Source: Acidobacteriota bacterium (GTDB taxonomy: Bacteria > Acidobacteriota > Vicinamibacteria > Vicinamibacterales > UBA2999). From it: a DNA stretch of 64,000 bases. The first letter of the stretch is position 1. Each line of letters starts with the position of its first letter. The notes beneath the pieces are model-generated. The model saw nothing but the letters and a program-made list of their open reading frames with translations, did not search any database and had not been told where the DNA came from. Shown here piece after piece: positions 20,014 to 59,920 of this stretch. Made by a program: the position numbers and the translations under genes. The stretch spans positions 62,001 to 126,000 of the forward strand of contig JAUYQQ010000022.1 of NCBI GenBank assembly GCA_030697165.1, read 5' to 3'.

Positions 20014-20102
20014 GGAGAGGTACCGAAGTGGTCGTAACGGGCGCGCCTCGAAAGCGTGTTGTCCGAAAGGGCACGTGGGTTCGAATCCCACCCTCTCCGC
20101 CA
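20014..20102 (+). tRNA. tRNA-Ser (CGA)
   Basis: Acceptor GGAGAGG / CCTCTCC, anticodon stem CGCGC / GCGTG with loop CTCGAAA giving CGA, a long variable arm (TTGTCCGAAAGGGCA) typical of class II tRNAs, T arm GTGGGTTCGAATCCCAC, discriminator G and encoded CCA (20100-20102). Everything downstream for 40 kb looks accessory, so its 3' end is a likely attachment site. Confidence 0.95.
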
Positions 20103-22740: not shown

Positions 22741-22851
22741 TCGATTCGACCGAATCGTGTCAACGCGCTCAGGCGGGCATTACTTGTAGAGAAGGGACTT
22801 GCCAGTCCCCGGCCAGCACCCTTGGCGAAATAATAGCGAAACTGCTAGATT

Positions 22852-23142: not shown

Positions 23143-23151
23143 GGCGATTCC

Positions 23152-30700: not shown

Positions 30701-30870
30701 GCAACGTCTCGGTGGACTGGATGCACCGCGATTCCGCCCGCGCTAACATCCGCCGCCACGTCAAGCGGTTGCTGCGGAAATACGGCTATCCGCCGGACCT
30801 TCAGGACGCCGCCGTCCAGAACGTCCTGCAGCAGGCTGAAGCCCTGTCTAGCGAGTGGGCGAGCCTGTGA
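27697..30870 (+). CDS. hsdR: Type I restriction endonuclease/translocase subunit HsdR
   Basis: 1057 residues from GTG 27697, sharing 4 bp with the preceding stop. The N-terminal nuclease has [20 protein letters not shown] (D and ExK near 140-160). The motor has motif I HTQGSGKS (about 299), motif [12 protein letters not shown] (about 405), [11 protein letters not shown], and the late motif [19 protein letters not shown]. The C-terminal helical part docks to HsdM. It translocates and cuts unmethylated DNA in an ATP-driven manner. The operon hsdM-hsdS-HEPN-hsdR is complete and all frames are intact. Confidence 0.95.
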
Positions 30871-30897
30871 TGCGAGTTTCAGGGCGGTCCCTCACCC

Positions 30898-44622: not shown

Positions 44623-44956
44623 GCGCGTCAAATCACCGCGATGGCGTCTTGGGCGCACGAACGGCCAAACCTACTTGTGCCTTTTGTCTCAATGTCCCTA
44701 TGGCTCATCTGCATTCGCAAGAGCCTATGGCCCCCACTTCATCCTGTCAAACGTTGATTAGAGCCGGGACGTGCTCACCGTAGTTGAACGCTCACGCCCT
44801 CAGCCTGCATGCGCTGCGAAACGAATAGTTCCGTTTGTGGCTAGGGCTCTTCGTGAGTATTGCTAGGTTGGCTTCTAACTGCGAGCGATGCGAGTGGCGG
44901 CGGTGATCGCAAGGCGACCAGAGTGAGTCGCCGAAAGTTAAGGTAAGTAGACTTGG
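44623..44956. other. Intergenic gap, 334 bp
   Basis: Lies between the start of the ABC-3C effector gene and the end of the T4SS-associated lipoprotein gene. It must hold the ABC-3C promoter, but no clear promoter, terminator, repeat or small gene could be supported. Confidence 0.5.
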
Positions 44957-45433
44957 CTAACTCTTTGTGAGAATCAAGTGGCCAGTGAACGTCGCCGCTT
45001 GGCAATCCGTGCCGGTAAAGTCGGCTTCAATCCGGCCGGTCTCCGCACGTCCGACGCTTCCAAACGTGCCTCGGCATCCGCGCGGCGACGTGAACTCACC
45101 CTGGGTGCTGATCTGAGCTGGTGCGGTGTTCCCGGGAGTGATCGCCGTCGTGCCGGTCGTTGTCATGGTCAGCCACGAATGGTCCGAGTGCACCGACGTG
45201 CGGAAGGACTGCAGGTTTGTCTGCGGGAGCGCCTCAAAGGTCCACTCCATCGCGCCACTGGTTGGAGGCGGCGCCTGAGGATCGCCAGGGTTCACCTGCA
45301 GAACCAGGGTCCCGCGCCACGTTCCCGTCAAGAACGATGTGGGAGCTGATGGACTGGTGGGACCCGGTGAACCTCCACCGCACGCAGTCAATCCGAGAAA
45401 CAGCATTGGCGCCAGCCAGGCTCTTGTCGTCAT
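44957..45433 (-). CDS. Lipoprotein at the end of the conjugation operon
   Basis: 158 residues. Signal MTTRAWLAPMLFLGLTAC with lipobox (LTA-C), mature start CGGGSPGPTSPSAP. The rest is a small beta-rich domain (FLTGTWRGTLVLQVNPG, GEFTSPRGCRGTFGSVG, TFTGHLILTKS). Its ATG overlaps the virB11 stop by 4 bp. A VirB7-like role is conceivable by position, but VirB7 proteins are usually far shorter. The style matches chromosomal lipoproteins of the host (compare 3407). Confidence 0.65.
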   Translation of the reverse strand: MTTRAWLAPMLFLGLTACGGGSPGPTSPSAPTSFLTGTWRGTLVLQVNPGDPQAPPPTSGAMEWTFEALPQTNLQSFRTSVHSDHSWLTMTTTGTTAITPGNTAPAQISTQGEFTSPRGCRGTFGSVGRAETGRIEADFTGTDCQAATFTGHLILTKS

Positions 45434-46437
45434 GAGTCCTCGCTTTCGTGGGGAGCCATTTCATCAAACACCCAAAATCGATCGAGTTCAAACTGATCCG
45501 TTGGGCCGCAATAGCCGGAGACGTGCAAGGCTTCGGTAACGATCCGCCGCCCGGATCGGCGGTCGATGTGAACGACTAGATCGATCGCCAGGGCAATCGC
45601 CTCCCGCGTGCTGTGGTGAGGCAGGCCGACGTTCGCTGCAACCACGCAATGAGCCAAGCGGGCGAGAGCTTGTGTGGCGGAGTTCGCGTGGATAGTGCTG
45701 AGGGCGCCCTGGTGGCCGGTATTGAGCGCTTGCAGGAGGTCAAACGCTTCCGCTCCCCGGACCTCGCCCACAAGGATGCGGTCCGGCCGGTGCCGCAAAG
45801 TTGCTCGCAGAAGGTCGGCAATCGTCACCGCCGGCAAAGGGGCTTCCTGCCCGAGCGGTTGCTGCAGGCGACGGGCCTCGAATCGGACTAGATTGGGCTT
45901 GTCGATCCGGATCTCTGATGTCTCCTCGATCAGCACAATCCGATCGGTTGCCGGGATGGTTGCGGCAAGGGCGTTGAGAAGCGTTGTCTTTCCCGTCCCG
46001 GTGCCGCCGGATATCAGGATGTTCTGGCGCGTGCGGACAGCATCCACCAGAGTGTTCGCCAGGTGGTCAGGCAACGTTCCAGACTGGACGAGTTCGTCCA
46101 GCGAATAGTGGTGGGTGAACTTCCGCACCGTGAGTGTCGGTCCATCGACCGAACACGGCGGAAACATTGCTGCTACGCGCGAGCCATCCTCAAGTCTGGC
46201 ATCGAGCGCGGGTTGGGCCTCCGAGATCTCATCGCCGCAGGCCCTGGCGATGTTCTTGATCGCGACCGTCAGGCTGCGGGAGTCCAGTGTGCGATCGGCT
46301 ACCGCCTCGATGGCGCCGTGGCGCTCGACGAAGACCTGCCGGCCGCCACGGTTCACCATTACCTCCGTAACCGTCGGATCCCGCAGAAGATCCTCGATGG
46401 GCCGCAGAAAAGGAAGGATCCGGTCCAGGCTGCTCAC
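45430..46437 (-). CDS. trbB: T4SS traffic ATPase VirB11/TrbB
   Basis: 335 residues. Walker A GGTGTGKTT (144-152), IVLIEETSEIRI, the Asp-box region and Walker B-like RPDRILVGEVRGAEAFDLLQ, then the His box HQGALSTIHANSATQAL. This is the hexameric secretion ATPase at the cytoplasmic base of the conjugation machine. It overlaps virD4 by 4 bp upstream and the lipoprotein by 4 bp downstream. Confidence 0.92.
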   Translation of the reverse strand: MSSLDRILPFLRPIEDLLRDPTVTEVMVNRGGRQVFVERHGAIEAVADRTLDSRSLTVAIKNIARACGDEISEAQPALDARLEDGSRVAAMFPPCSVDGPTLTVRKFTHHYSLDELVQSGTLPDHLANTLVDAVRTRQNILISGGTGTGKTTLLNALAATIPATDRIVLIEETSEIRIDKPNLVRFEARRLQQPLGQEAPLPAVTIADLLRATLRHRPDRILVGEVRGAEAFDLLQALNTGHQGALSTIHANSATQALARLAHCVVAANVGLPHHSTREAIALAIDLVVHIDRRSGRRIVTEALHVSGYCGPTDQFELDRFWVFDEMAPHESEDS

Positions 46438-48437
46438 AGGGCGCCTCGTTCGAGGTGATCGAAATAGCTCGTTTGCACATCCAGGTAGTGCGGTTTCAGA
46501 TAGCAGAACTGCGGGGGTAAGGGATTCACGCCGTCGTAGGGCAGGACGATGGCCTGCGCGTTCTGCAACTGGGTGAAGACCCGTGGGGCAAAGATGTGTT
46601 CGTGGGTGGGTGCGTAGCTCTTTGTCGCGGTGATCGAATGCTTGTTCGCGGCAGCGCGGCCGGTGAGCAGTGAAATGTGAGCCTCGCGCCCGGACTCGGA
46701 GAGGCTGTAGTGCGCCTTGAGCTTGTCATGCCGCCCGCACAGGTCGGCGGCGTTTCGGGCCGTGAACTCGTCGCTGGTGGCGAGAAACACTTTGTTACGG
46801 AAGCACTGCAGCAGCGTCCTCCAGCTCTCGTCTCCGGGAAGGACCGACCGCAGTGAGCTGATGCTTTGTGTGGCAACGATCGGAATCAATCTCGCCTGCC
46901 TGGATAGCGCGAACGTGCGCTCGTCGCCGGTCGGATCGGTCTCCCCAACCGTCGCGAACGCATGGTACTCGTCGCAGATGAACATCAGGTCTCGCCAGGC
47001 CTTGCCCGGTTGCGAACTAATCTTCGGAATGCGCTGAAGAACGGCTCGCTGAAAATCCAGCTTCAGCATCACGCCGATGATGCGCGCGAGCCCTGGATTG
47101 GCGGCAACAGGAAAGTTCAGAGCCAGCACGCGACCGGCATCGAGGAGCGTATCGATGGGAGGTAAGGGTGTGGGCTCGCCCGGACTCAAAGTTCCGGAGT
47201 AGGCGCGACGCGGGGGACAGAAGGCCCGGTGGACCGCAGGGTTATCGTCGAACAGTGACAGGAACACGACGATGCCCTCTGTGATCGACGAACGCAAACG
47301 TGTGTCGAGACGACTCCAACCGCCGGCGTACCAGCGCTCGACGGCTTCCAGCTGATGCCTCCGATCGGCCCAGCCGGCGCCTTTGGCCTTTCGCACTTCA
47401 TACGACGCGCCTCTGCTGTCCAAGAACGTTTCGAGCTCGGCGTCATAAGGGTGCGCCATATGCTCCGCATCGTCCTGGAACCAATGAGCCCAGGAACGCT
47501 GCAGGTCCAGCAGTTGATACTCGACCGTCGGCACGAGCACTACTTCCGGAACATCCGACAGTGACACCTTCAGTCGCCGGATGTCGCGGTCGATCTGCGA
47601 ATCGTCCAGCACATAGCGGTAGACATCGGAGAGGGTGGTGTAGCCGTCGCTCAGACGCCGCAGCAGGATCACGAACTTCAACAGGTCGGTGTACGCCTGT
47701 TGCCAGAACGGCTCCTTTGACTTCCCGAACAAGTTGTTCAGCAAGGAAGCAATCGCGTAGGCCACGGCATACGGGTCAAGGTCGTTGTGAAGCGGGTTGT
47801 AGCAAGTGCCCGTATCCAACCCGATCTCAACGTAGTCGTCGGCACGACCCGCGTCCGTTAGCATCCTGCGGACCTGCAGACAGAAATCGCCCTTGACCTC
47901 CATCACCAGGCCACCGATCTTCCGCTCTTGGTCCTGGCTGCGCCACCTCACAAGCTGGTCCACGTAGGGATACATGCATGCGGAAGTCTTTCCGGTTCCG
48001 ATGGCACCAACGATCATCGTTCCCGTGTAGAGCCCGCGTTCCGGAATGATCAGCCACGTCGGTTCGGCGGCCCGACCAATCGTGGTGGGATGGTGGGACT
48101 CGCCGAGTATTAGCGATGGGGCTGGGCGAGTCTCGGGAGATGGGTAGGGCGGTAGCTCGCGGAACCGCATGCGCGGTTGCTTGCGGTAAAGGACGATTGC
48201 CGTCAGAGACAAGAGAAGGGACGCCACGTGGAAAGGCGTTGAGAACCACATGGCGGCGTACCCGTAGCTGATCACTGTGAGGACATCTGGCCGGCGGCTT
48301 GCGATCGCGGCGAGGAATGGCTCGTCCGGATTAACAGGAAACGCGTAGAGCCCTGCCGATCCGACCAAGGCCGCCGTGGTCAAGGCAATCAGGGCCCTCG
48401 ACTCAAGGAACGCGCGCAGGCTCGACGTTGCCAGCAC
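46434..48437 (-). CDS. T4SS coupling protein VirD4/TraG-like
   Basis: 667 residues from GTG 48437. Two N-terminal membrane helices (LIALTTAALVGSAGLYAFPV, VASLLLSLTAIVLYRKQP), Walker A GAIGTGKTSACMYPYVDQL near 143, Walker B DLMFICDEYHAFATVGE and RLIPIVATQSISSLRSVLPG. It is the hexameric DNA pump that brings the relaxosome to the secretion channel. It is 12 bp downstream of the small accessory gene. The length is normal for the TraG/VirD4 family. Confidence 0.9.
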   Translation of the reverse strand: MLATSSLRAFLESRALIALTTAALVGSAGLYAFPVNPDEPFLAAIASRRPDVLTVISYGYAAMWFSTPFHVASLLLSLTAIVLYRKQPRMRFRELPPYPSPETRPAPSLILGESHHPTTIGRAAEPTWLIIPERGLYTGTMIVGAIGTGKTSACMYPYVDQLVRWRSQDQERKIGGLVMEVKGDFCLQVRRMLTDAGRADDYVEIGLDTGTCYNPLHNDLDPYAVAYAIASLLNNLFGKSKEPFWQQAYTDLLKFVILLRRLSDGYTTLSDVYRYVLDDSQIDRDIRRLKVSLSDVPEVVLVPTVEYQLLDLQRSWAHWFQDDAEHMAHPYDAELETFLDSRGASYEVRKAKGAGWADRRHQLEAVERWYAGGWSRLDTRLRSSITEGIVVFLSLFDDNPAVHRAFCPPRRAYSGTLSPGEPTPLPPIDTLLDAGRVLALNFPVAANPGLARIIGVMLKLDFQRAVLQRIPKISSQPGKAWRDLMFICDEYHAFATVGETDPTGDERTFALSRQARLIPIVATQSISSLRSVLPGDESWRTLLQCFRNKVFLATSDEFTARNAADLCGRHDKLKAHYSLSESGREAHISLLTGRAAANKHSITATKSYAPTHEHIFAPRVFTQLQNAQAIVLPYDGVNPLPPQFCYLKPHYLDVQTSYFDHLERGAL

Positions 48438-48449: not shown

Positions 48450-48740
48450 TCACGCACCGCTGGCAGCAACGGGAGTGCGACGCCGCCCTCCGGGAGCCCG
48501 AGCACCGCGCGCACCAGATGCGCTCGGAACGAATGTCTCACTGTGGGTCGCACGCCACTGCAGGTATTCCTTGTCCCTGGCGAGCACGGTGTCGATCACC
48601 TGATTCAGGACGTACTCGGTGGACTCGCCGATGAAGTGCGCGTAGGCGTACAGCGTCTCGTTGGTTTCGTAGTCGAGACGCGTCCGGTGCCGCACCAGTT
48701 GCTTCCCGCGAGTGCGTGGCTTGATCAGTGTCATGGGCAT
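48450..48740 (-). CDS. Small ICE accessory protein, possible DNA-binding
   Basis: About 96 residues from ATG 48740 (48734 and 48743 are alternatives): MPMTLIKPRTRGKQLVRHRT, then RLDYETNETLYAYAHFIGES and TEYVLNQVIDTVLARDKEYL. A basic start followed by two helices resembles ribbon-helix-helix or relaxosome accessory proteins. It lies directly upstream of the coupling protein and just downstream of the large inverted repeat at 48888, which would suit an oriT-binding protein. This is inference. Confidence 0.55.
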   Translation of the reverse strand: MPMTLIKPRTRGKQLVRHRTRLDYETNETLYAYAHFIGESTEYVLNQVIDTVLARDKEYLQWRATHSETFVPSASGARGARAPGGRRRTPVAASGA

Positions 48741-48887
48741 CATCCTTCCCGTCGGCGGAACGACAAAGAGGGCAGAGGCGACTGCCTGAAACAGACCGCC
48801 AGTCTGAGTGAACGGCGAGGGCAGGCCGCGACCAACGCCGCGACTGCATCTGGCCATGAATCTCCCGTAGACCTTACCGACGCCGGC

Positions 48888-48960
48888 TGGGCGTGAGCGA
48901 CCCCCCTTGGACGGACCGTGGGCCACCAAACCCACTTTTGAGGGGGGTCGCTCACGCCCA
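48888..48960. repeat. Perfect 20-bp inverted repeat, candidate oriT or terminator
   Basis: TGGGCGTGAGCGACCCCCCT (48888-48907) and its exact complement (48941-48960), separated by 33 bp that contain a further small stem, GTGGG / CCCAC. It lies in the 450-bp gap 48741-49191, the only long non-coding stretch in the transfer region. Confidence 0.75.
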
Positions 48961-49133
48961 GACTCCCCTAATTGCGGTCTGTTCGGATCGCGGAGGGCGG
49001 CAGAAGGCGCCGCCCCATCAGCCAACGACTGCTCAAGCCCAAGTCCGGACCACGCAACGAGTTGGAGGCGCCGCCCGCGATTCCTGGCTAGAGGCTTTCG
49101 ACGGAGGAAGCCAGGATTCCGAGCCTCGCCGAG

Positions 49134-49178
49134 GGGGGAACATACTCCTCCGATTTGCGTTCCCCTCCGTGTTCCCCC
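49134..49178. repeat. Inverted repeat after the 330-residue gene
   Basis: GGGGGAACA (49134-49142) and TGTTCCCCC (49170-49178), 9-bp arms with a 27-bp spacer, 13 bp past the stop codon at 49192. It could end or stabilise the upstream transcript. Confidence 0.45.
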
Positions 49179-49191: not shown

Positions 49192-50184
49192 CTATGCAGT
49201 GCCGACCAGAGTTCGCAAGTGGAAGTACGGGTGTGGCAGGACATGTGCTTCAACCTTTCCAGTGCCGCGAGCCATCGCGTCCGCCAGTGCCGGTGACGAG
49301 AGGTCGCTAAGGGCGCCCGCACCCTCGTTCCGCCACCGCCGATACAACAAACGAAATCGAGGCGTTCCGAAGGCCAGACGAGCCCGCAGGAGTCGCTCCT
49401 GGTCGGCTGCCGAGTCGTTCGCGCCCGTGCGCTGCGCCTCGAATAGCCACTGCAACTCCGCGGCTGCGGACAAGCGCATCGGGCTCAGCAGTTCTTGCTG
49501 AAACGCCGAAAGGTAGACCTGGCGAGCGGGCGCGAGGTGGGCCGGTATCAGCAGTCGCACACGCCACGCCGGGAGTCCTCGGAGGAGTTCCGCATGGCGC
49601 TGTAGAAACTTCCTGAAATCCCGCGCGTCATCGCCCGTCACCAGGAAAGTGAACACCCGCACTTGGCCGTCTGACGAGACTCCAATGGGCAGTTTGTCGG
49701 GGAAGTACCGCGTCGTGGTTCTGGGCGGTTCTCCGAACACCAACCGGGGCAATTCCTCTCGACGAATCGTGGTGCCGAACATACGAGTGAAATGCGCCAG
49801 CTTGTCCTGCTCGGTCGCCAGCCAATCGAGGTCGCGACTTCCAATTACCGCGTCGAGCAACATCAAGCGTTCGATGGCCGCCCCAACGGGAACAGGCTTC
49901 CGATTGCGGTTATTCTCCTGGCCGATTGCCTCATACAGGGAGCGGTGCTGAACGTGAAATATCCGCGTTCGCTGATAGGGATCGGTCGTGAATGAAGCAT
50001 GCTTTCGCTCGAGTAGCGCAGAAAAGAAGTTTTGCGTCTTCTGGCCGCGGGCGATGCCACTGAACTCGCAGTACTGGCGCACCATGCACACCCCTGAGTG
50101 GAGCAAGACGGTCACCAGGAAGCGAGCCTGCCGGTCGGTATATCCCTTCGACGCAATCGCGGCAACGCGGTCCTCGAACGTCAA
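49192..50184 (-). CDS. Conserved element protein of unknown function (330 aa)
   Basis: Soluble and helical. YTDRQARFLVTVLLHSGVCM, RQYCEFSGIARGQKTQNFFS at the start look like a winged-helix DNA-binding domain with a long linker; later parts (RVRLLIPAHLAPARQVYLSA, TPRFRLLYRRWRNEGAGALS) are of no recognised family. It overlaps the next upstream gene by 4 bp, so both are expressed with the T4SS genes. A DNA-processing role for transfer is likely from position. Confidence 0.55.
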   Translation of the reverse strand: MTFEDRVAAIASKGYTDRQARFLVTVLLHSGVCMVRQYCEFSGIARGQKTQNFFSALLERKHASFTTDPYQRTRIFHVQHRSLYEAIGQENNRNRKPVPVGAAIERLMLLDAVIGSRDLDWLATEQDKLAHFTRMFGTTIRREELPRLVFGEPPRTTTRYFPDKLPIGVSSDGQVRVFTFLVTGDDARDFRKFLQRHAELLRGLPAWRVRLLIPAHLAPARQVYLSAFQQELLSPMRLSAAAELQWLFEAQRTGANDSAADQERLLRARLAFGTPRFRLLYRRWRNEGAGALSDLSSPALADAMARGTGKVEAHVLPHPYFHLRTLVGTA

Positions 50185-51080
50185 TGGAGCATCTCCTCAG
50201 CGAGCCGAGACTCGCGGCCCCGGCCGCCTCGACCAGACGAGCCGGCGCTACCAACCCTGGCGGATCCGTATCGGTAACAGGTGAAACCTGCTGATACTTT
50301 CGCCGACGCATGACTGCCGCGGTAGTGGGGGGTGACGACCTCTATGTCTTGGTGACCCCGCTCGCCATCCGGACGGTCGTACTCGATGCGGAAGTCAGGA
50401 AATTTGACGCTGTCGTCGATGACGGGTAGGCCGTGCTCTTCGGCCCACCTGGCAATGGCCTCCCGATCGCGTCTTGGCTGCCCAGTCGCCCCGCGACGCC
50501 GGCGATTGGGGTCTTGGAGAAAGCTTTGGTATTCGCGTTTCAGCTCGCGATCCAAGGTGACTCTTTGGATTCGACACCCGTCCCGGGCCAGCCGCTCAGC
50601 GGCATCCAGATACGCCGGAAGCAGCCGGCTGTCGTGAGCCAGCTCGCGCTTCGTCGAACCAACGTGGAACGCCTGCGGCCTTGGCTGGTTGCGGTCGCCA
50701 CGGCTACTCTCCAAGACGGCCCGCCCCTGGTCCGTCAAGGTGACGAGCGTGCATCGCTCACGGCCAACCACGTAAGCGCTGGTCGACACCAAACCGGCTT
50801 GGCGGAGGGGCTCGACGTCCTTCGACAGCAGCTCGCCAGAGCCCGCCAGTCGTTGAAGATCGTCCTCTCTGACGACGCGGAATGCGCCGACCGTGGCGAG
50901 GGTCCGAACCTCTGACGCGCGTAGTCTGCAGTTTCCAATGCGCTCACGTCTCAGACCGCTCGGAAGGTGCAGGTCGCGGCTGAAGACCTCTCGCGGATCA
51001 ACGCCGCGGCGAGCCTCCTGTTCACGGAGACGGTCGATATCGCGGGCCTCAGATTCGCCTGGCTCTCGATCTCTTGGCAT
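50181..51080 (-). CDS. Winged-helix and nuclease-like protein, possible replication-relaxation protein
   Basis: 299 residues. Residues 50-130 form a winged-helix-like domain (RASEVRTLATVGAFRVVRED, VVGRERCTLVTLTDQGRAVL). At about 225-255 VIDDSVKFPDFRIEYDRPDG then GHQDIEVVT gives a D...E-x-E pattern like a PD-(D/E)xK core. The layout resembles replication-relaxation family proteins that replace classical relaxases on some elements. It is therefore the best candidate here for DNA processing at oriT. The C-terminus is Gly/Arg-rich. Confidence 0.5.
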   Translation of the reverse strand: MPRDREPGESEARDIDRLREQEARRGVDPREVFSRDLHLPSGLRRERIGNCRLRASEVRTLATVGAFRVVREDDLQRLAGSGELLSKDVEPLRQAGLVSTSAYVVGRERCTLVTLTDQGRAVLESSRGDRNQPRPQAFHVGSTKRELAHDSRLLPAYLDAAERLARDGCRIQRVTLDRELKREYQSFLQDPNRRRRGATGQPRRDREAIARWAEEHGLPVIDDSVKFPDFRIEYDRPDGERGHQDIEVVTPHYRGSHASAKVSAGFTCYRYGSARVGSAGSSGRGGRGRESRLAEEMLH

Positions 51081-51092: not shown

Positions 51093-51380
51093 CTATTCCG
51101 CTTGCCCTGGAAGCTGCGGCAGCGACGAGTCGGCGGTGCCTAGCTGGCGATCGAGGTGCAGCAACTTGCTGCCGGAGTCGCGTAGAAAGAGCCATCTAGC
51201 AAGGTTGTAGTAAATGGCGCAAAGGTTGAAGAACGTGACCAGGCAGGCCGCGCCAATCAACCAGCCATGACGCCGGAAGAGAGTCGCCTTGTATGGCGCC
51301 AGGAAACTGAGTTCGCTGGCCAGCCAGCCGGCCAGCAGGAAGACGGTAACGCCCGCCAAGAACGCGGTGTTCGCAATCAT
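51093..51380 (-). CDS. Small inner-membrane protein of the T4SS operon
   Basis: 95 residues with two membrane helices (AFLAGVTVFLLAGWLASELS and WLIGAACLVTFFNLCAIYYN) and a short cytoplasmic tail. Overlaps virB8 by 4 bp. An entry-exclusion or assembly role is possible; no motif decides. Confidence 0.6.
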   Translation of the reverse strand: MIANTAFLAGVTVFLLAGWLASELSFLAPYKATLFRRHGWLIGAACLVTFFNLCAIYYNLARWLFLRDSGSKLLHLDRQLGTADSSLPQLPGQAE

Positions 51381-52078
51381 CTTCTGGCCTCGTCGAACGC
51401 CTGGTCGATTCGGAAGTAAACGATTTGCAGCCCGAGCGGGTTGACTCGCACAAACGCGTTCGGCACCTGCTCGCGCAGGACGAAATCGACTTGCGCGACG
51501 TAGGTCTCCCGGGACCGCTCTTGCCGGGTCCCAGGCGCGTAATGCACCTTCTGAAAGCCGATGGCGGCCTTGAAGGGCGGCCGGGTCAGCTCGGTCAGGC
51601 TGACGTTCTGGACGATGACATCGGTTTCATCAGCACCGGGATTGGTGACGAAGGACTCGATGCCGCGGGTTTGATCATTCTGCGCAATGGTGGCGTCAGC
51701 CAGCGTCGCATCGAGGAACAGCAGCGAGTCGGGATACTCGCGCTGAACAGTGGCCCGGATGCGGCTGAAGTGCTTGATTACGAACTGCGTCAGAAAGTAC
51801 CGGAGTTCTGGTGGTTGTGGCTGGTATCGGGTCGCGTCATACTCGACGGCCTCCGCTCGCCCGACCGAATCAATTCGGATCACCAGCGGTTTTACTTGGG
51901 CGTATTTCGTCACGGTGTGGGCGTTGAGAGCCACCAGGCCGGCTGCCACCAGCGACACGAGGACGAGGGCAATCTTCAGATAGGAGTTCAGCACTAGCGA
52001 CGAGCCGTACAGCTCCACGAACTGGCGCTTCGCGCTTTCCAGCGTCTTGGGATTGATGTCGCCAACGGTCGGATTCAT
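51377..52078 (-). CDS. trbF: T4SS inner-membrane protein VirB8/TrbF
   Basis: 233 residues: a short cytoplasmic start, one membrane helix (IALVLVSLVAAGLVALNAHT), then a periplasmic NTF2-like domain with RIDSVGRAEAVEYD, FLTQFVIKHFSRIRATV and a strand-rich end (YVAQVDFVLREQVPNAFVRV). VirB8 dimers bridge the inner-membrane complex and the outer core. 10 bp after the small membrane gene. Confidence 0.85.
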   Translation of the reverse strand: MNPTVGDINPKTLESAKRQFVELYGSSLVLNSYLKIALVLVSLVAAGLVALNAHTVTKYAQVKPLVIRIDSVGRAEAVEYDATRYQPQPPELRYFLTQFVIKHFSRIRATVQREYPDSLLFLDATLADATIAQNDQTRGIESFVTNPGADETDVIVQNVSLTELTRPPFKAAIGFQKVHYAPGTRQERSRETYVAQVDFVLREQVPNAFVRVNPLGLQIVYFRIDQAFDEARR

Positions 52079-52253: not shown

Positions 52254-53108
52254 CTAGCGCCGCGAAAATATCCGGCTGATGCTGACTCGGTTCGCCAAGG
52301 TGCTTTCTCCGCTCGATCCCGAGAAAATGGATTGGGTCAGCGAGGGCACCTGGAGAATCCCCATGCAAAAAGTGGCCACAACGGCAAACGCCTGCATCGC
52401 GTAGATGCCGTAGTCCGCCTGCGTGATCACGGGCGGCAACGTCGTGACGTAGCGGAAGATGAATTGCTCGAAAATCATTAGGAAAGCGATGGCTACGACC
52501 GGGATGAACGAATATTGAATGAACGATTTGAACCAGCCCCAGAACAGCCAGTCGAGCTTCGGGACAATGAAGAAAGGGACAAAGATTGGCCCCAGAAGTG
52601 CACATACCGCGCTGGCAATCAGTCCAAAAGAGATGACAGCAAGGGACACCGCCTTCGCGAATGCGATTAGAAACAAGACGGTCCAATAGATCAGGTTCGC
52701 AAGGATCGACCACGGATCGGGCTGCATGAAGTGAGCGGACAGCTCATCGAGGTGCCGATAGACGTTGTCGAAGGCGCGCGCCTGAAGGACCGATTGGAAG
52801 TACCCGGCCTGGTCCGTGATGAGGTTGCTGAACGACACGCCGATGCCCGGAAGGGGGCTCTCATAGAAGGCGATCAGGGAGTAGCCGAACGAGATGAAGA
52901 GGAGCAACTTGGCGAAATCAAACATCTGTTCGCCGAGGCCGTCCCCGCTGAACATCACCCTGATGCCGTGCCAGGCGATCAGGATCACGGCGAACGACAG
53001 AAACAGCCGGTATCCGAACCGCAGGAACTCCGGCTCATATGTCAGCAACAAGCTGGTGATCGCCTGCTGAACGGTCGGAATAAGGTCGAGCGATGGGTGC
53101 GTCGGCAT
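52254..53108 (-). CDS. trbL: T4SS polytopic channel protein VirB6/TrbL
   Basis: 284 residues with five to six membrane helices (LFLSFAVILIAWHGIRVMFS, IYWTVLFLIAFAKAVSLAVI, FGLIASAVCALLGPIFVPFF, FIPVVAIAFLMIFEQFIFRY). The IFVPFFIVPKLDWLFWGWFK segment is the conserved VirB6/TrbL signature. It forms the inner-membrane part of the DNA channel. Confidence 0.85.
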   Translation of the reverse strand: MPTHPSLDLIPTVQQAITSLLLTYEPEFLRFGYRLFLSFAVILIAWHGIRVMFSGDGLGEQMFDFAKLLLFISFGYSLIAFYESPLPGIGVSFSNLITDQAGYFQSVLQARAFDNVYRHLDELSAHFMQPDPWSILANLIYWTVLFLIAFAKAVSLAVISFGLIASAVCALLGPIFVPFFIVPKLDWLFWGWFKSFIQYSFIPVVAIAFLMIFEQFIFRYVTTLPPVITQADYGIYAMQAFAVVATFCMGILQVPSLTQSIFSGSSGESTLANRVSISRIFSRR

Positions 53109-53126: not shown

Positions 53127-53918
53127 TCAGGGCTGACGCCACGTCTGCAGGGCAGTGCCGGCGTCCGAGGGCCTGGCGCTTGCGGTGGCCTCGCGGTAGC
53201 GCCATTCCGACAGCTGCATGTTCATGGCTGCCGCGTGGGAATCCCGTTCCCGCTTGGTGTCGACCATGAGCTGCTCGACCAGGCCAATCATCAGGTTTGT
53301 GCGGGCCTGGCGCTGGCGGGCCGCAATCAGGGAGGCACCGCTAATCTTGTCCAGAACGGCGGTTGCGCTCTGCTCCAGGGTGCCGTTGGTCACATCTCCC
53401 TCGAGTGCCTCGATCGCACGCAGCTCGGCGCGACCCGCGTAGCGGATACGGCCGCTGTTGTGGATGGTTGCGACGCTGACGGCATCGGTGGCGTCAATCG
53501 TGGACAGTTGTTGCTCAAGCACCCTGCGAGCCACGGGCGGCAAACCCGCCGTGACTTCGTCGAAACCGGAAATCTGCTCTGTAACGCTGCGGTAGCCCAC
53601 GCCTTCTGAGTCGCCGAAATCGAGAGCGGATTGGAACGCTGCGGCCACCTCGTCGCCGTCACCAGCGTAGCCAGGATGGGTGCGCCACCGAGGCGCGTCC
53701 GGGGCGCCGTACTTGCCCAAATCCGTGAACATGCTGAGCCGCTGCGCCCATCGGCGAAGCTGACCGTGTTGTGCCACCTGTGTCTCGAGCAGGTACTCCC
53801 TCAGCGTGGCGGTGACCGCATTTCTCAGCGTGACAGAGGTGTCGTGCACCACGATCTGGGCATGTCCAGGCGAGGCAGCGAACAGAATAGCGACCACAAT
53901 CAGGGCGTGTTTCTTCAA
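53127..53918 (-). CDS. VirB5/TrbJ-like periplasmic protein, copy 2
   Basis: 263 residues with signal peptide (MKKHALIVVAILFAASPGHA). All helical mature protein; RQARTNLMIGLVEQLMVDTK, then MNMQLSEWRYRE and a C-terminal LQTWRQP. It shares the MNMQLxxWR region and the final TWRQP with the gene directly upstream, so the two are paralogues. TrbJ/VirB5 proteins are minor pilus components. Confidence 0.7.
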   Translation of the reverse strand: MKKHALIVVAILFAASPGHAQIVVHDTSVTLRNAVTATLREYLLETQVAQHGQLRRWAQRLSMFTDLGKYGAPDAPRWRTHPGYAGDGDEVAAAFQSALDFGDSEGVGYRSVTEQISGFDEVTAGLPPVARRVLEQQLSTIDATDAVSVATIHNSGRIRYAGRAELRAIEALEGDVTNGTLEQSATAVLDKISGASLIAARQRQARTNLMIGLVEQLMVDTKRERDSHAAAMNMQLSEWRYREATASARPSDAGTALQTWRQP

Positions 53919-53930: not shown

Positions 53931-54707
53931 CTAGGGTTGACGCCACGTTCTCAGCGCATCAGAGCTGCCCTTGACCATGGCGTCGTTCGCACCCTTACCA
54001 CTGCGCCACGTCTCCAATTGCATGTTCATCGTCGCGGCCTCGGCATCGCGGAGCCGCTTGCCGCGCGCGAGCAGTTGCTCAACGGCGTGGGACAGGAGCT
54101 GATTCGCGGCCATGTCCTGGCGCCGGCCCAGCAGCTCGGCACCGGCGACCTTGTCGAGGATGGCGGTCAGCTCGTGATACCGAAGCAGGCCGTTCATGAC
54201 GTCATCCTCAAGACCTTGCACCGATTGCTGTAACCGGTCGCTGTACTGTCGAATGGCGCCTACCTGGTGACCGGCCATCATGGCGACTGAGTCTGCGATC
54301 TCCACCGTGGCGAGCTGCCTGGAGAACGCCCCCTGCGCCTTTGCGGTCATTCGGGCAGGTAGCTGCGGGCGCGACTCCAAGGGGACGGTGGTCGCCGCAT
54401 AGGCCGCACCGGTCGGATCGCCGGAGTTCAGACCTCTGAGCCAGGGCCCGGCGTGCGACCAACGACCGAAGTCGTGCTTGGCGCCGGAGATCGGGGGCGT
54501 CCGGTACCCCTCCATGTTGCCCAGCCCTTGCGACATTCGGAGGATCGTTCGGTACTGGGCGGTCAATTCTTCCAGCTGTCGCTGTGTTCGTTGAGCGATC
54601 AACACCGCCTGTTCGAGGTTCGATGGGTCGATCACCGCGAGTTGGCCGCGGGCGGGCACCGCAGTGAGCGTTAGGACGGCGAGTGCTAGAGCCAAGCGCG
54701 AAAACAT
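53931..54707 (-). CDS. trbJ: VirB5/TrbJ-like periplasmic protein, copy 1
   Basis: 258 residues with signal peptide (MFSRLALALAVLTLTAVPARG). LAVIDPSNLEQAVLIAQRTQ, then QRQLEELTAQYRTILRMSQG is the usual TrbJ start; the end is MNMQLETWRSGKG ... ALRTWRQP. Pilus-tip or assembly component. Tandem duplication with 53127 is noted there. Confidence 0.75.
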   Translation of the reverse strand: MFSRLALALAVLTLTAVPARGQLAVIDPSNLEQAVLIAQRTQRQLEELTAQYRTILRMSQGLGNMEGYRTPPISGAKHDFGRWSHAGPWLRGLNSGDPTGAAYAATTVPLESRPQLPARMTAKAQGAFSRQLATVEIADSVAMMAGHQVGAIRQYSDRLQQSVQGLEDDVMNGLLRYHELTAILDKVAGAELLGRRQDMAANQLLSHAVEQLLARGKRLRDAEAATMNMQLETWRSGKGANDAMVKGSSDALRTWRQP

Positions 54708-54710: not shown

Positions 54711-55940
54711 TCACCTCTCTTGGTCAACGCCGGTGGTGGCTGCGCTCCACGCCGGCAGTTCCAGGTCGCTGGTCACATAGACCTTCACGCGGTGACCTTC
54801 TCGGATGGTGATCGTGGGCATGCGATTGAGAAATCGATTGAGCGACTGAGCGCTGGCCTGGGATGCTGCGTCAGCCGAGCCCGCCACAATCACCGTCCGG
54901 TCTCCGTCGCCGCTGCCTAACGCGGCGCTCCCGAGCCACTGCGACAGCCCGCCAACCAGGCCCACCGCCGCCGCAGCTCCAAACGTCGACCAGTAGTGCT
55001 GATTGACACGATCCTTCAGCCCGGAATCACCGCGCTGGTTCAGTCCCCTGAACTGGTCGAGGGCCACCGACTGTCCGTCCGGCATCACGACGCGGTGAAA
55101 GCCGACCGCCAGCCGCGTGTCGTTCAATCCTTCAACTTGTCGCGTTTCGCCGAGTACCCGCGCCCCAGCCGGCACCAGAATGTGCTGACCGTTCTGGGAG
55201 TAGACCGGGTTCGTGACCAGGCAGTTGACCGGCGAGGCCGCCGCTCCATCCAGGCGATTCGTCAGAACGGTGTCGATGATGGTGCCTTCGACGATCCGGT
55301 GCATATTGCCGGCAACAATCGAATACTCGCGGGCGTTGGCGGCAACACGTCGCGTGGCGCCCGGCACAGACGCGTTTTCGGACGCGGGGCTGGCCGCGAC
55401 CTCTTGAGGGCTGTTTCGCGTGGTCGCCCGGACAACCGCGTCAGCGATGGCGTCCAGGGATGGCTCGTTCCCAGCCAGGCGCGGTCGTTCGTCGGCCTGA
55501 ACTCCGGACTGGTCCGCCCTCGCGTCTGGCCTCTGCAGCGGTGCCCGCCGGCTCACGACGACATTGCTGGCGAACAGGCTCTCGTAGTCTCGCCGCTGCC
55601 GCTCGCCGGCAAGGGGATCGACTGCCTCAAGCTGGACGTCGTCCTGAAAGGCAGGAGGCAGGGAGGGCTCGCCCCTCAGCTCTGGGGCCGACAGGCCGTT
55701 GAGGGCACTGAGGCGCTCCTGATAGTCACGGACCCTGTCAGGGCTGACGGCCTGCTGCGCCGGGCTCGCCGCACTGCTGCGTTCGGGGGCCTGAGGCTGC
55801 CCGGTGAAGAAGATGATCAGGACAATTCCTAGCGCCAAGGCGACCATAAGCCAGGTCTGGATGCCCTTCGGCAGGACACCGCGCGGAACCGGCCGTCGGT
55901 CGACCACGGGCGCCGCGCCTTGTGTGTCGGTTGCGCTCAT
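54711..55940 (-). CDS. trbI: T4SS core protein VirB10/TrbI
   Basis: 409 residues: a short cytoplasmic start, one membrane helix (WLMVALALGIVLIIFFTG), a long Pro/Ala/Arg-rich periplasmic linker, then the beta-barrel domain (REYSIVAGNMHRIVEGTIID, HILVPAGARVLGETRQV, LDQFRGLNQRGDSGLKDRVN, TITIREGHRVKVYVTSDLEL). It spans both membranes and gates the channel. It follows virB9 by 2 bp. Confidence 0.92.
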   Translation of the reverse strand: MSATDTQGAAPVVDRRPVPRGVLPKGIQTWLMVALALGIVLIIFFTGQPQAPERSSAASPAQQAVSPDRVRDYQERLSALNGLSAPELRGEPSLPPAFQDDVQLEAVDPLAGERQRRDYESLFASNVVVSRRAPLQRPDARADQSGVQADERPRLAGNEPSLDAIADAVVRATTRNSPQEVAASPASENASVPGATRRVAANAREYSIVAGNMHRIVEGTIIDTVLTNRLDGAAASPVNCLVTNPVYSQNGQHILVPAGARVLGETRQVEGLNDTRLAVGFHRVVMPDGQSVALDQFRGLNQRGDSGLKDRVNQHYWSTFGAAAAVGLVGGLSQWLGSAALGSGDGDRTVIVAGSADAASQASAQSLNRFLNRMPTITIREGHRVKVYVTSDLELPAWSAATTGVDQER

Positions 55941-55942: not shown

Positions 55943-56722
55943 TTACTGCTCCCGCTGCTCAAACGACAGCCGTGTGCTACCCAGCGCCAAGTACCCACGG
56001 TCGAGCACCTTTGGGATGACGTAGACGCCGCCTCGAACCTGGAAGTTGACGATGGACGGCTTTCCATCCTTCAGCTCATAGAGCGCGGGAAGTTCGCGGG
56101 CGTCGGCTTTGAGAAACGTGAAGGCCCCGTCGTGCCAGATTGCCTGAACGAAGAATGGCTTCTCATACTTGGGGGTGCCATACGCAAACCGGAGTTTGCT
56201 GGGGTAGTCCTGATTGGCCGCTGCCAGCGCCTCCTTTGCGCGCTGTTCCGATCGGACGACCGCAGCTTTTGCCTCGGTCAGCTCCGAGTTCAGCCGTTCG
56301 ACATCAGCTGCGCTGTAGTACTTCTGGTGGCCGGTAGGTGCATCTTGATTCGCGTTCACGTAGATCTTCAGATCCGGCTGGCCTGAGCCGGCCTTCTCCT
56401 TGAGCAGGAAGGAGTAGATCGCACCCTTTGCGGTGACCAAATTGAGATTGGTCTCGGCGTCCGCTTTCGCAGGCTTGACGTGGGCGACGTTCTGCACGGC
56501 ACTGATGACCCAGAAGTCGCGGTCGCCGCAGATCACGTCGAGGATCTCATCGCCGTCCGGAAGGACAATCATCGTCGTATAGCGCAGCCGGGTGTTCAAG
56601 GGGATGACATTGCGGTCGGTCGCGGTCACTTCTCGAATACCACCTACTTGTGCGGCAGCCGGGCGAACGTCGAGGGCAACCCATGTCAGCGAAGCGACGA
56701 TCGGAATCAGTAGTGCGCGCAT
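55943..56722 (-). CDS. trbG: T4SS outer core protein VirB9/TrbG
   Basis: 259 residues from ATG 56722, which gives signal peptide MRALLIPIVASLTWVALDVRPAAA. YTTMIVLPDGDEILDVICGD, FWVISAVQNVAHVKPAKADA, TNLNLVTAKGAIYSFLLKEK are the VirB9 N-terminal domain, and PFFVQAIWHDGAFTFLKADA, FQVRGGVYVIPKVLDRGYLA the C-terminal domain that contacts VirB7/VirB10. The frame open upstream is not needed. Confidence 0.9.
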   Translation of the reverse strand: MRALLIPIVASLTWVALDVRPAAAQVGGIREVTATDRNVIPLNTRLRYTTMIVLPDGDEILDVICGDRDFWVISAVQNVAHVKPAKADAETNLNLVTAKGAIYSFLLKEKAGSGQPDLKIYVNANQDAPTGHQKYYSAADVERLNSELTEAKAAVVRSEQRAKEALAAANQDYPSKLRFAYGTPKYEKPFFVQAIWHDGAFTFLKADARELPALYELKDGKPSIVNFQVRGGVYVIPKVLDRGYLALGSTRLSFEQREQ

Positions 56723-56735
56723 CCAGTACCTCGTT

Positions 56736-59162
56736 TCAGGCAGAGGCGGCCAGGCGATCCAGGCCGGCCGCGAATCCAAACTCACGGAACACCGAAGCCA
56801 CCCGCTCGTTGTCAATCGGGGTGTTTGTATAGATCCAATAGCTCTTGGGATCGACGTTCAGGTCGAGCACTTTTGCTAGCTGAGCCCGCTTGAGCAGCAC
56901 CTGGCGGCGGGGCAGCAGGTTCGCCATCAAGCTCAGCTCCATCTCGTTCATCTGCAGGAGCTCGCGATACTGCTCCGGATTCATGGAGGGGTTCGCCAAG
57001 AGCAGCCGGGTCGGACAGCTCTCGACGACGGTCCTCAGCAGGTCGGCCGATGAGAAGTCTTCGATGCTCTGGGTGGCGAGGAGCATGGCGCCATTTCGCT
57101 TGCGCCAGGTCTTCAGGGCTTCCTGTGCATACGACCGCACCGCCGGGTGCTGAATGAGCCGCCAGGCCTCGTCCAGAACGCATACCTTGAGGCCCGGATC
57201 ACCGGGATCGTGGACGCACTGGCTCACCCGATGCAGGATGTAGAAGAGCAGCGGCTCCAGAACCGCGGGATACGACCGCATGGCCTCAAAGTCGAAGACC
57301 TGAAGCCGGTCCAGCGCTAGGGTGTCGACCGGGTTGTCAAACATCGAGGCGTATCGACCGCCCTCAACCCACTTGTGCAGTCGTCCCCCGACGGCCCTCG
57401 GGAGCAGGCTCGAGAGCGTGAACAGCCTCCGCTGCGATTGTTCAAGAACGTACAAGTTCTCAATCGCTTCGTACACCTCGCGGTCCTCGAGGTGGCTCAG
57501 GCGGTAGCCATCCTCTCCTTCAATCAGAACCTTGGTGAACGCATGGAGAAAGTGCAGTTGCTCCGGCGTTGGTGACGAGATGTCGAAAGGATTGATGGTG
57601 ACGGCCTGACGCCCGAGCCCCAGCTCGACATAGCTGCCCTGGAGAAGTGCCGTCAGCTTCCTGTAGCTGTGACCCAGATCGAGCACGATGGTGAGCGGGT
57701 CATGTTGCTGCAGCTGAGTGATCAGGAAGTTGAGCAGGAAGCTCTTTCCGCTGCCTGTTGAGCCGAGAACGAGTGTGTGGCCGACATCATCCACATGGAG
57801 GTTGAAGTGGTAAGGCGCCTGCTGCGGCGTCTCAAAGACGGCCAATGCACGTTGACCAAGATGAGGGCATAAAGGCTCGCCGTAGTCCTGGCTGAAGATG
57901 AAACTCAGATCCGCGCAATTGGTCTCCAAGAGGGCGATGCGCCGAAGATTGTAGGCGCCGTTGCCGGGGACGATGCTCAGCCAGGCGTTGAGAAGGTTAT
58001 AGGTTTCCTCGACGAAGACTCCGTCATGGGAGGCCAGAACCTTGGCTGCCTCCGCGCTGGCAGTTTCCAGTGCCCTCGTGTCTCGGCCGTGGAGCACGAG
58101 CGTCAGGGAGGTGGAGCCAAAGAAGTGCCCGTTGACCTCGAGCTCGGTGAGCGCATCGCCGAGCTGGCCGACCGTTGCCCCAGCGGAATCGTCTACCAAC
58201 ATCTCGTCCGGTGAGGTATCAGCCGACACGTAGTTCACCAGAGACACCCGTTTGTTGAAGAAATGCCGTCTGCGCGAGTGAATGTCGCGCCGCACTTTGT
58301 CGTTTGGGAGGCGTTGCCACTCGGCGCATGCCACGAACTCACCTGGTAGCTCCACCAGGTCTGAGAGCATGTGTGCGTAGGTATGGCTCGGCGGCTCCTT
58401 CATGGAGAGCACCTTCAGAGACCGTGTGCCAACCCGCAAGTGATCGCGATGGCATTCGATCGCGGAGTCGGCAGCGAAGTAGTCCAGGTATGTGTCGTAG
58501 CGCAGGCTGCTGGCGTCGGCGACACTGGGATCGAGGTTCAGGAGTCGCCGGAAGAAGGCGAACATCTCCGCCTTTGGCAGTCGCCGCAGGTGGCACTCGG
58601 CCAGTTGGACAGCGAATGCCGAGGCAGCCTGGTCAAGAGTGCGAGTGGCTTCATCGAGCTGCGACTCGAGCAGGTGGAACGTGTGCGTCAGCGATAGTTG
58701 CTCCCTGATGGTCGCGAGCGGTTGTCGGATGAATCGCCGCAGCGATCCATCGAGGTGCCCGATGCCGGTTTGGTCCGACAGCAGCACCAGATACTGATCG
58801 ACCTGGAACAGCCGCTCGCGCTTTCCGTTCAGGTACTCCGACCGACGCTGGAAGGCCTCCCGCGCCACTGCTCGCGAACAGTCCGGGACTGCAAACGCGT
58901 CGGCGTGCCGTTTGAGCAAGTATTGGTAGACGCGGGTCTTCTCATCCAACTGCCTCAACGCGGCTTCAAACTGGTGCGTGACGCGCTGTCGCTGCTCATG
59001 GGGCAATGCCTCGGCGTCGGGCCCCTGTACCTGGAACATGACGCCAACGCTCCCACTCTTGGTAACGAAAGTGACGTCATCCAGGAAGCCCCAGAGCGCT
59101 ATCAGTGAGTTGATGGCTCCGGATTCTTGGTAGTCGCGAAAGACTCGACCGAAGCGCGTCAT
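56736..59162 (-). CDS. trbE: T4SS ATPase VirB4/TrbE
   Basis: 808 residues, normal for the family. N-terminal domain starts GRVFRDYQESGAINSLIALW. Walker A VLGSTGSGKSFLLNFLITQL near 466, Walker B VCVLDEAWRLI near 665, and AMLLATQSIEDFSSADLLRT. VirB4 energises pilus assembly and substrate transfer at the inner membrane. It overlaps virB3 by 4 bp. Confidence 0.94.
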   Translation of the reverse strand: MTRFGRVFRDYQESGAINSLIALWGFLDDVTFVTKSGSVGVMFQVQGPDAEALPHEQRQRVTHQFEAALRQLDEKTRVYQYLLKRHADAFAVPDCSRAVAREAFQRRSEYLNGKRERLFQVDQYLVLLSDQTGIGHLDGSLRRFIRQPLATIREQLSLTHTFHLLESQLDEATRTLDQAASAFAVQLAECHLRRLPKAEMFAFFRRLLNLDPSVADASSLRYDTYLDYFAADSAIECHRDHLRVGTRSLKVLSMKEPPSHTYAHMLSDLVELPGEFVACAEWQRLPNDKVRRDIHSRRRHFFNKRVSLVNYVSADTSPDEMLVDDSAGATVGQLGDALTELEVNGHFFGSTSLTLVLHGRDTRALETASAEAAKVLASHDGVFVEETYNLLNAWLSIVPGNGAYNLRRIALLETNCADLSFIFSQDYGEPLCPHLGQRALAVFETPQQAPYHFNLHVDDVGHTLVLGSTGSGKSFLLNFLITQLQQHDPLTIVLDLGHSYRKLTALLQGSYVELGLGRQAVTINPFDISSPTPEQLHFLHAFTKVLIEGEDGYRLSHLEDREVYEAIENLYVLEQSQRRLFTLSSLLPRAVGGRLHKWVEGGRYASMFDNPVDTLALDRLQVFDFEAMRSYPAVLEPLLFYILHRVSQCVHDPGDPGLKVCVLDEAWRLIQHPAVRSYAQEALKTWRKRNGAMLLATQSIEDFSSADLLRTVVESCPTRLLLANPSMNPEQYRELLQMNEMELSLMANLLPRRQVLLKRAQLAKVLDLNVDPKSYWIYTNTPIDNERVASVFREFGFAAGLDRLAASA

Positions 59163-59470
59163 CGGCTCATCCTCACTTCGGCAGGCTGGTGCTTCAGTGG
59201 ATCGAATCGCCTCCGTGCCTTCGACGAAGACAGGAGGATGCGAAGCATCTCGGGGTCCCGGTCAGTGGCCCACAAAGAAAAGCCATAGAGGGCGACGAAC
59301 ATCAGCAGCCCGGCCAGGAACGAATAGAACAGGTTGAACGTTGCGGCGCCCAGGAGCATCGCCAGAAAGAACAGCCGGCGTTCGACGCCCCAAATGGTGA
59401 GCCGCCGATGGAGCCCCTTGTAAGTGACTCGGACCGTCGGTCGCGGCGTTTGAACTGGCTTGGTTGTCAT
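59159..59470 (-). CDS. trbD: T4SS inner-membrane protein VirB3/TrbD
   Basis: 103 residues with the VirB3 pattern: YKGLHRRLTIWGVERRLFFL, then two helices (LAMLLGAATFNLFYSFLAGL and FVALYGFSLWATDRDPE) and PEMLRILLSSSKARRRFDP. It binds VirB4 and takes part in pilus assembly. 6 bp after virB2. Confidence 0.88.
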   Translation of the reverse strand: MTTKPVQTPRPTVRVTYKGLHRRLTIWGVERRLFFLAMLLGAATFNLFYSFLAGLLMFVALYGFSLWATDRDPEMLRILLSSSKARRRFDPLKHQPAEVRMSR

Positions 59471-59476: not shown

Positions 59477-59866
59477 TTAGAACAACCACGTCATGAACTG
59501 GGCCGCGAACAGAGCCAGTCCGCCACCAAATACGATCCCGGAGATCTGTCGCTTGGCTCCACCTTCGCCGAACATGAACATGAGGCCACCGATCACAATG
59601 GCTACCAAGGCGAGCGACCGTGCGAGCGGCCCGGTGAACGTGAACTCGAGATTGCTGGCGGCCCTCTCCCATGGCGACTGCTGAGCAAACGCGACGGATG
59701 GCAGCAGAAGCACAACCGTAGTGAAGGCTTCAAGGATTGACGCGATCGACCAGCGTCGTGGCGGCGTGTTCGACGAGTCTGCCCGAAACGTTGCGCTTGA
59801 AATCGTCTGTGTGGCGACGGTAGATTCTCGACTCGATCGAGAAACAGGATAGATGCAGTCTGGCAT
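59477..59866 (-). CDS. trbC: T4SS pilin VirB2/TrbC
   Basis: 129 residues from ATG 59866, preferred because GAGG lies 8 nt upstream; GTG 59875 is also in frame. A long signal region (ASILEAFTTVVLLLPSVAFAQQ), then two hydrophobic helices (SLALVAIVIGGLMFMFGEGG and GIVFGGGLALFAAQFMTWLF), as in VirB2 pilins. It heads the transfer operon, about 50 nt after the predicted ECF promoter start site. Confidence 0.85.
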   Translation of the reverse strand: MPDCIYPVSRSSRESTVATQTISSATFRADSSNTPPRRWSIASILEAFTTVVLLLPSVAFAQQSPWERAASNLEFTFTGPLARSLALVAIVIGGLMFMFGEGGAKRQISGIVFGGGLALFAAQFMTWLF

Positions 59867-59920
59867 GTCGTTCACCTCGGATCCGACGACGACCTTTCCT
59901 CAAGATCGTCCCGTAACCGA

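Follow-up and report, generated by a model that had tools for sequence, protein, structure and literature searches.

Relaxases of the MOBC type are reported in plasmids, ICEs and IMEs (PMC12857230; PMC5357655), and the family PF13814 (Replic_Relax) is equated with MobC (PMC5357655). As PMC12857230 describes these enzymes, no covalent intermediate has been seen, and how a nuclease-type relaxase passes the DNA on is an open question. In the same account, TraX of pAD1 binds direct repeats away from the nic site. The terms iMOB and iOriT for integrative elements are those of PMC11389934. In the Acidobacteriota, described as abundant in soil, ICEs were described as early as 2011 (PMC3158045). An acidobacterial ICE is described here in which two overlapping genes, A and B, occupy the place near the gene of the VirD4-type coupling protein. 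It is likely that ORF A, together with ORF B, is a divergent MOBC-like relaxase and that a palindrome beyond B is part of its oriT. In the open-access literature, no account of this A-B module was found.

The stretch analysed (64,000 nucleotides, the window) is part of a contig of 571,542 bases in a genome of 5.39 Mb. The element that bears the T4SS is an 81.8-kb ICE integrated at tRNA-Ser. A second copy of the 21-bp repeat formed by the 3' end of the tRNA gene is located outside the window, at contig positions 163901-163921, 81.8 kb rightward, so that the right end of the ICE is about 37.9 kb past the window edge. A further 20-bp repeat is found just inside both ends, and the G+C content falls at the left border. 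Integrase, T4SS, coupling protein and flanking att repeats, by which an ICE is recognised, are all present (Table 1).

Other cargo was seen in the ICE. Two genes that adjoin the T4SS, at 41184-44658, encode an AAA ATPase and a CTD6 (ABC-three-component) protein that matches Mrr weakly; with this pair, the ICE likely carries a defence system. At the left end of the ICE, 20239-34197 holds genes for type I restriction and more helicase-type genes. Genes for efflux and for P-type ATPases are found in the right part (L001, L002), and the annotation of the ICE also includes metal-resistance genes. In L001, copper-oxidase-, phosphoketolase- and acetate-kinase-like genes were read by eye without a profile scan.

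Table 1. Features of the ICE and of related loci (positions are those of the window unless a locus is named)
Feature	Position	Strand	Basis or remark
ICE left end, 21-bp repeat	20082..20102	+	3' end of tRNA-Ser (20014-20102)
VirB11 ATPase (T2SSE)	45430..46437	-	Pfam
VirD4-type coupling protein (TrwB_AAD_bind, TraG-D_C)	46434..48437	-	Pfam
Small basic conserved protein, 96 aa, candidate relaxosome accessory	48450..48740	-	conservation; ribbon-helix-helix-like by eye only
Palindrome, candidate oriT core	48887..48961		21-bp perfect arms 48887-48907 and 48941-48961, 33-nt loop
Direct repeats GGGGAAC (two, with 12 bp between them) plus one inverted copy; candidate protein-binding sites	49133..49178	-	directly after B
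ORF B, regular partner of A, 330 aa, TTG start as called	49192..50184	-	winged helix and second α/β domain, PD-(D/E)XK-like topology
ORF A, candidate relaxase, 299 aa	50181..51080	-	winged helix about 46-125, then C-terminal α-β-β-β-α-β domain with H149-D150, P228-D229, E247
Small, apparently membrane, protein kept in T4SS operon	51093..51380	-	in 16 of 65 loci; no Pfam family
VirB8	51377..52078	-	Pfam
VirB6/TrbL	52254..53108	-	Pfam
Conserved T4SS-operon protein	53127..53918	-	in 14 of 65 loci; no Pfam family
VirB5-position protein	53931..54707	-	weak DUF4141
VirB10/TrbI	54711..55940	-	Pfam
VirB9/CagX	55943..56815	-	Pfam
VirB4 ATPase	56736..59162	-	Pfam
VirB3	59159..59470	-	Pfam
VirB2 pilin (TrbC)	59477..59875	-	Pfam
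Tyrosine integrase	L002:16582-17769		about 130 bp from the far copy of the 21-bp repeat
End repeat	L057		26 bp, 9.2 kb; encloses A; integrase Pfam-checked
End repeat	L069		46 bp, 5.5 kb; encloses A; integrase not recognised by Pfam, looks broken
End repeat	L089		44 bp, 13.3 kb; encloses A; integrase Pfam-checked
End repeat	L100		45 bp, 12.0 kb; encloses A

A first-pass annotation had listed VirB2, 3, 4, 5, 6, 8, 9, 10, 11 and VirD4 in the window and had seen no HUH or tyrosine relaxase. The list stands for VirB2, B3, B4, B6, B8, B9, B10, B11 and VirD4, all above the Pfam cut-offs; VirB5 is weak (DUF4141, 20.8 bits against a cut-off of 30). The lack of a recognisable relaxase was likewise borne out for the five profiles covered: PF03432, PF08751, PF03389, PF07514 and PF13814 gave nothing over the cut-off in the 5.39-Mb genome. 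The HUH profiles for MOBF, MOBP and MOBQ (PF08751, PF03432, PF03389) had no match genome-wide, and each of them matched in one of 14 control genomes. PF07514 (MOBH) had one match below the cut-off (22.4 against 23.9 bits) on a different contig. PF13814 matched in none of the 14 control genomes; among 396 genomes of the phylum, 22 have a match. The first-pass annotation would have been contradicted by a canonical relaxase close to the window edge, but these five profiles found none up to the ICE end or elsewhere in the genome. A ribbon-helix-helix identity of the 96-aa basic protein was also considered; it had no support from Pfam or PDB and was dropped.

The two genes named by the first-pass annotation as the best candidates for DNA processing are both on the minus strand and have 4 nt in common. 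ORF A is a single copy in the genome and was matched in 22 of 297 genomes of the phylum, its own included; tblastn of ORF A against plasmids gave no match. Scanning of genome contigs with 15 close ORF A sequences yielded 65 loci, and B was detected after A in 62 of them. T4SS genes were found in 17 of the 65 (VirB8 in 16, the small protein between A and VirB8 in 16, VirD4 downstream in 15). As far as each stretch extends, the gene order in these loci is that of the window, with A upstream of VirD4. In L104, a lone VirD4 match is on the opposite strand.

Sufficient flanks, at least 2.5 kb upstream and at least 4.5 kb downstream of A, were available for 37 A loci. Three or more T4SS genes are present in 13 of them and none was detected in 24, which means no tblastn match to the genes of this window; a diverged T4SS could escape. 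Integrase-cluster members, 13 tyrosine and 7 serine, occur in 20 of these 24. Membership refers to single-linkage BLAST clusters, fragments included; Pfam was used to check members or neighbours, five of the tyrosine type and two of the serine type. Among 15 tRNA-bearing loci searched, four have tRNA end repeats of 26-46 bp that enclose A. An integrase recognised by Pfam, A-B without T4SS genes and att repeats, which together define an IME, were all found in L057 and L089. One change (support 96/95) is enough to separate T4SS from AB-only forms in a tree built from 50 A proteins, and only four of 37 genomes have both forms (among the 65 loci). By their gene content, the A loci with and without T4SS would be ICE-like and IME-like elements, respectively. 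The first-pass choice of candidates has thus held: the pair travels together, mostly with the palindrome, in T4SS elements and in integrase-bearing loci without T4SS, and A is like MOBC/Replic_Relax in predicted architecture. Given that A-B recurs together with the palindrome, a machine that lacks a relaxase and is moved only in trans is a less favoured reading.

The palindrome is about 230 bp beyond B, in an apparently noncoding stretch of about 450 bp. As single-stranded DNA it has a folding z of -6.5 relative to 200 shuffles. Of 57 post-B regions, one was too short and 56 were scored. An inverted repeat scoring at least 15 is present within 450 nt after B in 42 of the 56, against none of 560 shuffles (shuffle maximum 14); the other 14 fall short of 15, and 11 of these fall short of 13 as well. 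The pair counts started from 44 regions with a qualifying repeat; four could not be anchored and one was cut, and 36 distinct arm pairs were left. Arm positions -12 to +4 are paired in 33-36 of the 36, and Watson-Crick changes on both sides are seen at 10 of these 17 positions. Since the arms were picked for complementarity, the two-sided changes are the informative part.

The window contains a single copy of the palindrome pattern, and 100 shuffles contain none. A search of 162 genomes of the order gave 65 sites, spread over 36 genomes, and none for the reversed-pattern control. B is within 1.5 kb of the palindrome at 46 of these sites. The distance to the edge of the B match is 212-299 bp in 36 cases, 134-169 bp in four, 348-395 bp in three and 827-1129 bp in three. 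These 46 palindromes are accompanied by T4SS genes in eight cases, by an integrase in 26 and by neither in 12. Among the 30 loci L004-L033, many of which are short, 11 have the exact motif; L014-L025 all lack it. Several AB-only loci (L053, L057, L058, L063, L071, L075, L079, L083 and L088) have another inverted repeat about 320-555 nt after B, in most cases with GTCAA as its core.

At 15 of the 19 palindromes without an adjacent B, an integrase is in the stretch, and two of these 15 have B elsewhere in the stretch; the rough chance level is about 3% of 12-kb stretches (12 integrase matches in the 5.39-Mb genome). It should be added that, among the 19, a contig end truncates L176, L179 and L195 within 1.3 kb, that L163 and L173 are on one contig and perhaps share one integrase, and that some 9.5 kb separate the site of L181 from the A-B pair in L090, provided that the equal length of their contigs (189,399) marks a single contig. 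An integrase near the palindrome, with no A or B in the stretch, is seen in L162-L164, L166, L169, L170, L173, L176, L178, L181, L195, L197 and L200. The same holds for L131, the one occurrence of the longer palindrome pattern in viral contigs, which has integrase-like matches and no A or B within 10.8 kb. Loci with palindrome and integrase and without A-B are candidate oriT-only integrative elements, or decayed or cut ones.

Shorter repeats directly follow B. In 13 of 18 T4SS loci (the 17 loci and the window), two direct repeats are 11-13 bp apart, with an inverted copy 27-38 bp after the first. Their sequence varies among the loci (GGGGAAC, TAGACAA, CGAACG, GAAGAG; two are G-rich hexamers). 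A geometry that stays similar while the sequence drifts would suit specific protein-binding sites, for which the repeats are candidates. In the first 110 nt after B, some repeat match was found in 28 of 57 regions; the AB-only loci are irregular in geometry.

The AlphaFold2 model of ORF A (alignment A5; pLDDT 85.4, pTM 0.81) consists of a winged helix followed by an α-β-β-β-α-β domain, a putative PD-(D/E)XK-like fold. The order of elements is winged helix, helix, strand, two helices, strands 230-235 and 241-249, helix and strand. The winged helix proposed in the first pass is borne out by the model and by fold matches, with a Pfam match below the cut-off (HTH_34, 19.1 against 27 bits). The proposed E-x-E segment was not borne out; the conserved signature is H149-D150 ... 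P228-D229 ... E247-V-V-T. In alignment A1 (26 of 28 reference sequences, without L012 and L017), the invariant residues are M1, R68, G119, Q136, H149, D150, A213, L218-P219, P228-D229, E247, Y253 and G265-F266; alignment A2 holds 19 of 21 sequences (without L005 and L017). In A5 (n=50; 49 of 52 sequences and the window, without L070, L095 and L103), H149 is invariant, and D150, P228, D229 and E247 are each conserved in at least 90%. D229 is located just before the strand 230-235, and E247 is on the strand 241-249. PD-(D/E)XK enzymes have the same layout, with D before one strand and E on the next. The lysine that usually follows the catalytic E is absent after E247.

Among the PDB fold matches listed for ORF A, most are of the MarR and PadR types, and only the winged helix is covered. 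Four matches with E<=0.001 and TM-scores of about 0.4 were found in a viral Foldseek library: S5M4M0 (phage JL), G3MBL2 (gp146 of phage G), UPI00232A4C1C and A0A8S5RVR1. The fourth in rank, A0A8S5RVR1, is annotated as a MarR-family regulator. The second, gp146 (Foldseek E 1.7e-5), is the sole one of the four that was family-scanned, and it matches Replic_Relax at 4.1e-25. This protein (L130:60-884) is a Replic_Relax member in a phage; in other words, the family is not confined to conjugative elements, and the fold is no proof of relaxase work.

These regulator-type matches, and the repeats beside B, which could be operators, would fit a reading in which the winged-helix proteins A and B regulate the transfer operon, with the palindrome as operator or transcription terminator, and another unrecognised protein is the relaxase. 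This reading seems unlikely. A has a second conserved domain that bears the PD, E and H motifs, regulators of a T4SS operon would find none in the 24 loci where no T4SS genes were detected, and the 33-nt loop and the lack of a T run after the palindrome are unlike a terminator. Alternatively, the module might be an initiator and origin for replication or maintenance of the excised circle and not serve conjugative nicking, as the Pfam name of the related family (replication-relaxation) and its phage member might suggest. The genes keep a constant position in the T4SS operon, with VirD4 and the small conserved protein close by, and the five profiles found no separate relaxase for the conjugative step, which makes this quite unlikely. 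An initiator can double as a relaxase; therefore, the replication and relaxase readings are not exclusive.

The model of ORF B (alignment A6, 46 sequences: 45 of 47 and the window, without L070 and L097) has a pLDDT of 91.3 and a pTM of 0.87. Profile comparison of ORF A and ORF B gave no significant similarity. SdaI, which consists of a winged helix plus PD-(D/E)XK, is a weak fold match of B: 2ixs_A was Foldseek rank 2 (E 0.027), and by VIA it was rank 50 (Z 5.9 over 127 residues, rmsd 4.3), within the tool's "common" range. The strand 176-181 of B, taken as the counterpart of the E247 strand in A, bears no conserved acidic residue, and the second domain of B is possibly inactive. For this reason, and in view of the weakness of the SdaI match, it is improbable that catalysis lies in B or in a site shared by an A-B complex, as the restriction-enzyme-like domain of B and its presence beside A in 62 of 65 loci might otherwise suggest; such an arrangement would be compatible with the MOBC-like relaxase. 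A role of the palindrome as the site at which the integrases recombine or excise, with A-B as excision factors, is a thought invited by the 15 integrase-bearing stretches among the 19 palindromes without adjacent B, but it is highly improbable. In the window ICE, about 52 kb separate the palindrome and the integrase, and of 11 T4SS loci with 9 kb to either side of them, none holds a member of either integrase cluster. The element ends that were found consist of tRNA repeats, and the palindrome co-occurs with both tyrosine and serine integrases.

The MOBC-like relaxase is the preferred reading. The pair and the palindrome recur in related transfer elements and in small elements without T4SS, and so A-B is probably the missing DNA-cutting enzyme. 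The lack of a profile match, the travelling of A and B as a pair and the MOBC-like predicted architecture together indicate that this machine probably has a relaxase that these profiles miss. A scheme for binding, nicking, oriT function, transfer and the protein contacts can be drawn from this anatomy. The winged helix of A would bind repeats in the apparently noncoding stretch of about 450 bp downstream of B, and its metal-dependent PD-(D/E)XK-like domain (D229 and E247, with H149) would nick one strand in or near the palindrome. B, of similar architecture and probably without a catalytic site, might help to bind or position the oriT. The small basic protein and VirD4 would then hand this strand over to the VirB channel. 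Integrative elements related to the ICE would keep A, B, the palindrome and an integrase and borrow the T4SS, and others, with palindrome and integrase only, would borrow A and B as well. A more specific proposal is put forward tentatively: a two-subunit relaxase composed of a catalytic and a dead winged-helix/PD-(D/E)XK protein, with a covarying palindromic oriT and no tyrosine link, serving a three-layer Acidobacteriota network of ICEs, A-B elements without T4SS, and elements with palindrome and integrase only.

Relaxases serve to recognise and count conjugative and mobilizable elements, and the A-B module escapes the five profiles used here. A DNA pattern suffices to search for the candidate oriT, and such a search brings ICE-like, IME-like and candidate oriT-only elements to light.

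The relation to MOBC was examined by profiles. In PLSDB, a plasmid with a CloDF13-type MobC is typed as MOBC, and this MobC matches PF13814 at 4.1e-22 (79.6 bits). In CloDF13 itself (L034, NC_002119), mobC is not annotated as a single gene and its reading frame is apparently split; other plasmids carry intact copies. ORF A had no match to PF13814, and two of 26 ORF A homologues matched it at E<=1, the best at 3e-5; L006 scored 15.8 bits, with a gathering score of 25.3. Comparison of 64 A proteins with 20 MOBC/Replic_Relax proteins (six MobC and 14 of the phylum) gave Prob 71.8 and P 3.5e-5. By domain, the winged helix reached Prob 92.2 and P 5.8e-7, and the C-terminal domains alone P 0.043, which is not significant. 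The winged helix of B also scores (P 1.2e-4). With only the six MobC proteins, the A profile gave a weak match (Prob 3.5, P 0.012), and an HMM of these six found none of the Replic_Relax loci L106-L129. The T4SS genes of the window were not found within about 1.5 kb on each side of Replic_Relax loci. Since the winged helix carries the profile match, the sequence link between A and MOBC is one of the winged helix only; the link of the catalytic domain is made by the predicted fold, the motif order and one tested fold neighbour (gp146).

When compared with known systems, ORF B is similar in architecture to SdaI-type restriction endonucleases, with a weak fold match, but its gene context differs and it has no conserved acidic residue on the counterpart strand. 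The AB-only loci with integrase and tRNA-end repeats fit iMOB elements (as termed in PMC11389934), although they are candidates for mobilisation and some of them may be decayed, and palindrome plus integrase without adjacent A-B fits iOriT elements (same source), some again maybe decayed. The repeats that adjoin B in the T4SS loci are candidate binding sites; TraX of pAD1 has direct repeats as its binding site, as described in PMC12857230. A and MOBC/Replic_Relax (PF13814; CloDF13 MobC, pAD1 TraX) have in common a winged helix and the motif order H ... PD ... E; in A, a putative PD-(D/E)XK-like domain, the catalytic fold of MOBC, is predicted after the winged helix. In the plasmids examined, the mobC gene adjoins the gene of a VirD4-type coupling protein, as A is near VirD4. 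In contrast to MOBC, ORF A is under the Pfam gathering score, and its C-terminal sequence similarity is not significant; compared with CloDF13-type MobC, it has about 45 extra residues between the H and PD motifs and no E-x-E/D. In its own loci, ORF A has a regular partner, B. ORF A is accordingly not filed as a formal MOBC member; it probably works like one, and the A-B module offers a new system for the MOBC question of how DNA is handed over without a covalent intermediate.
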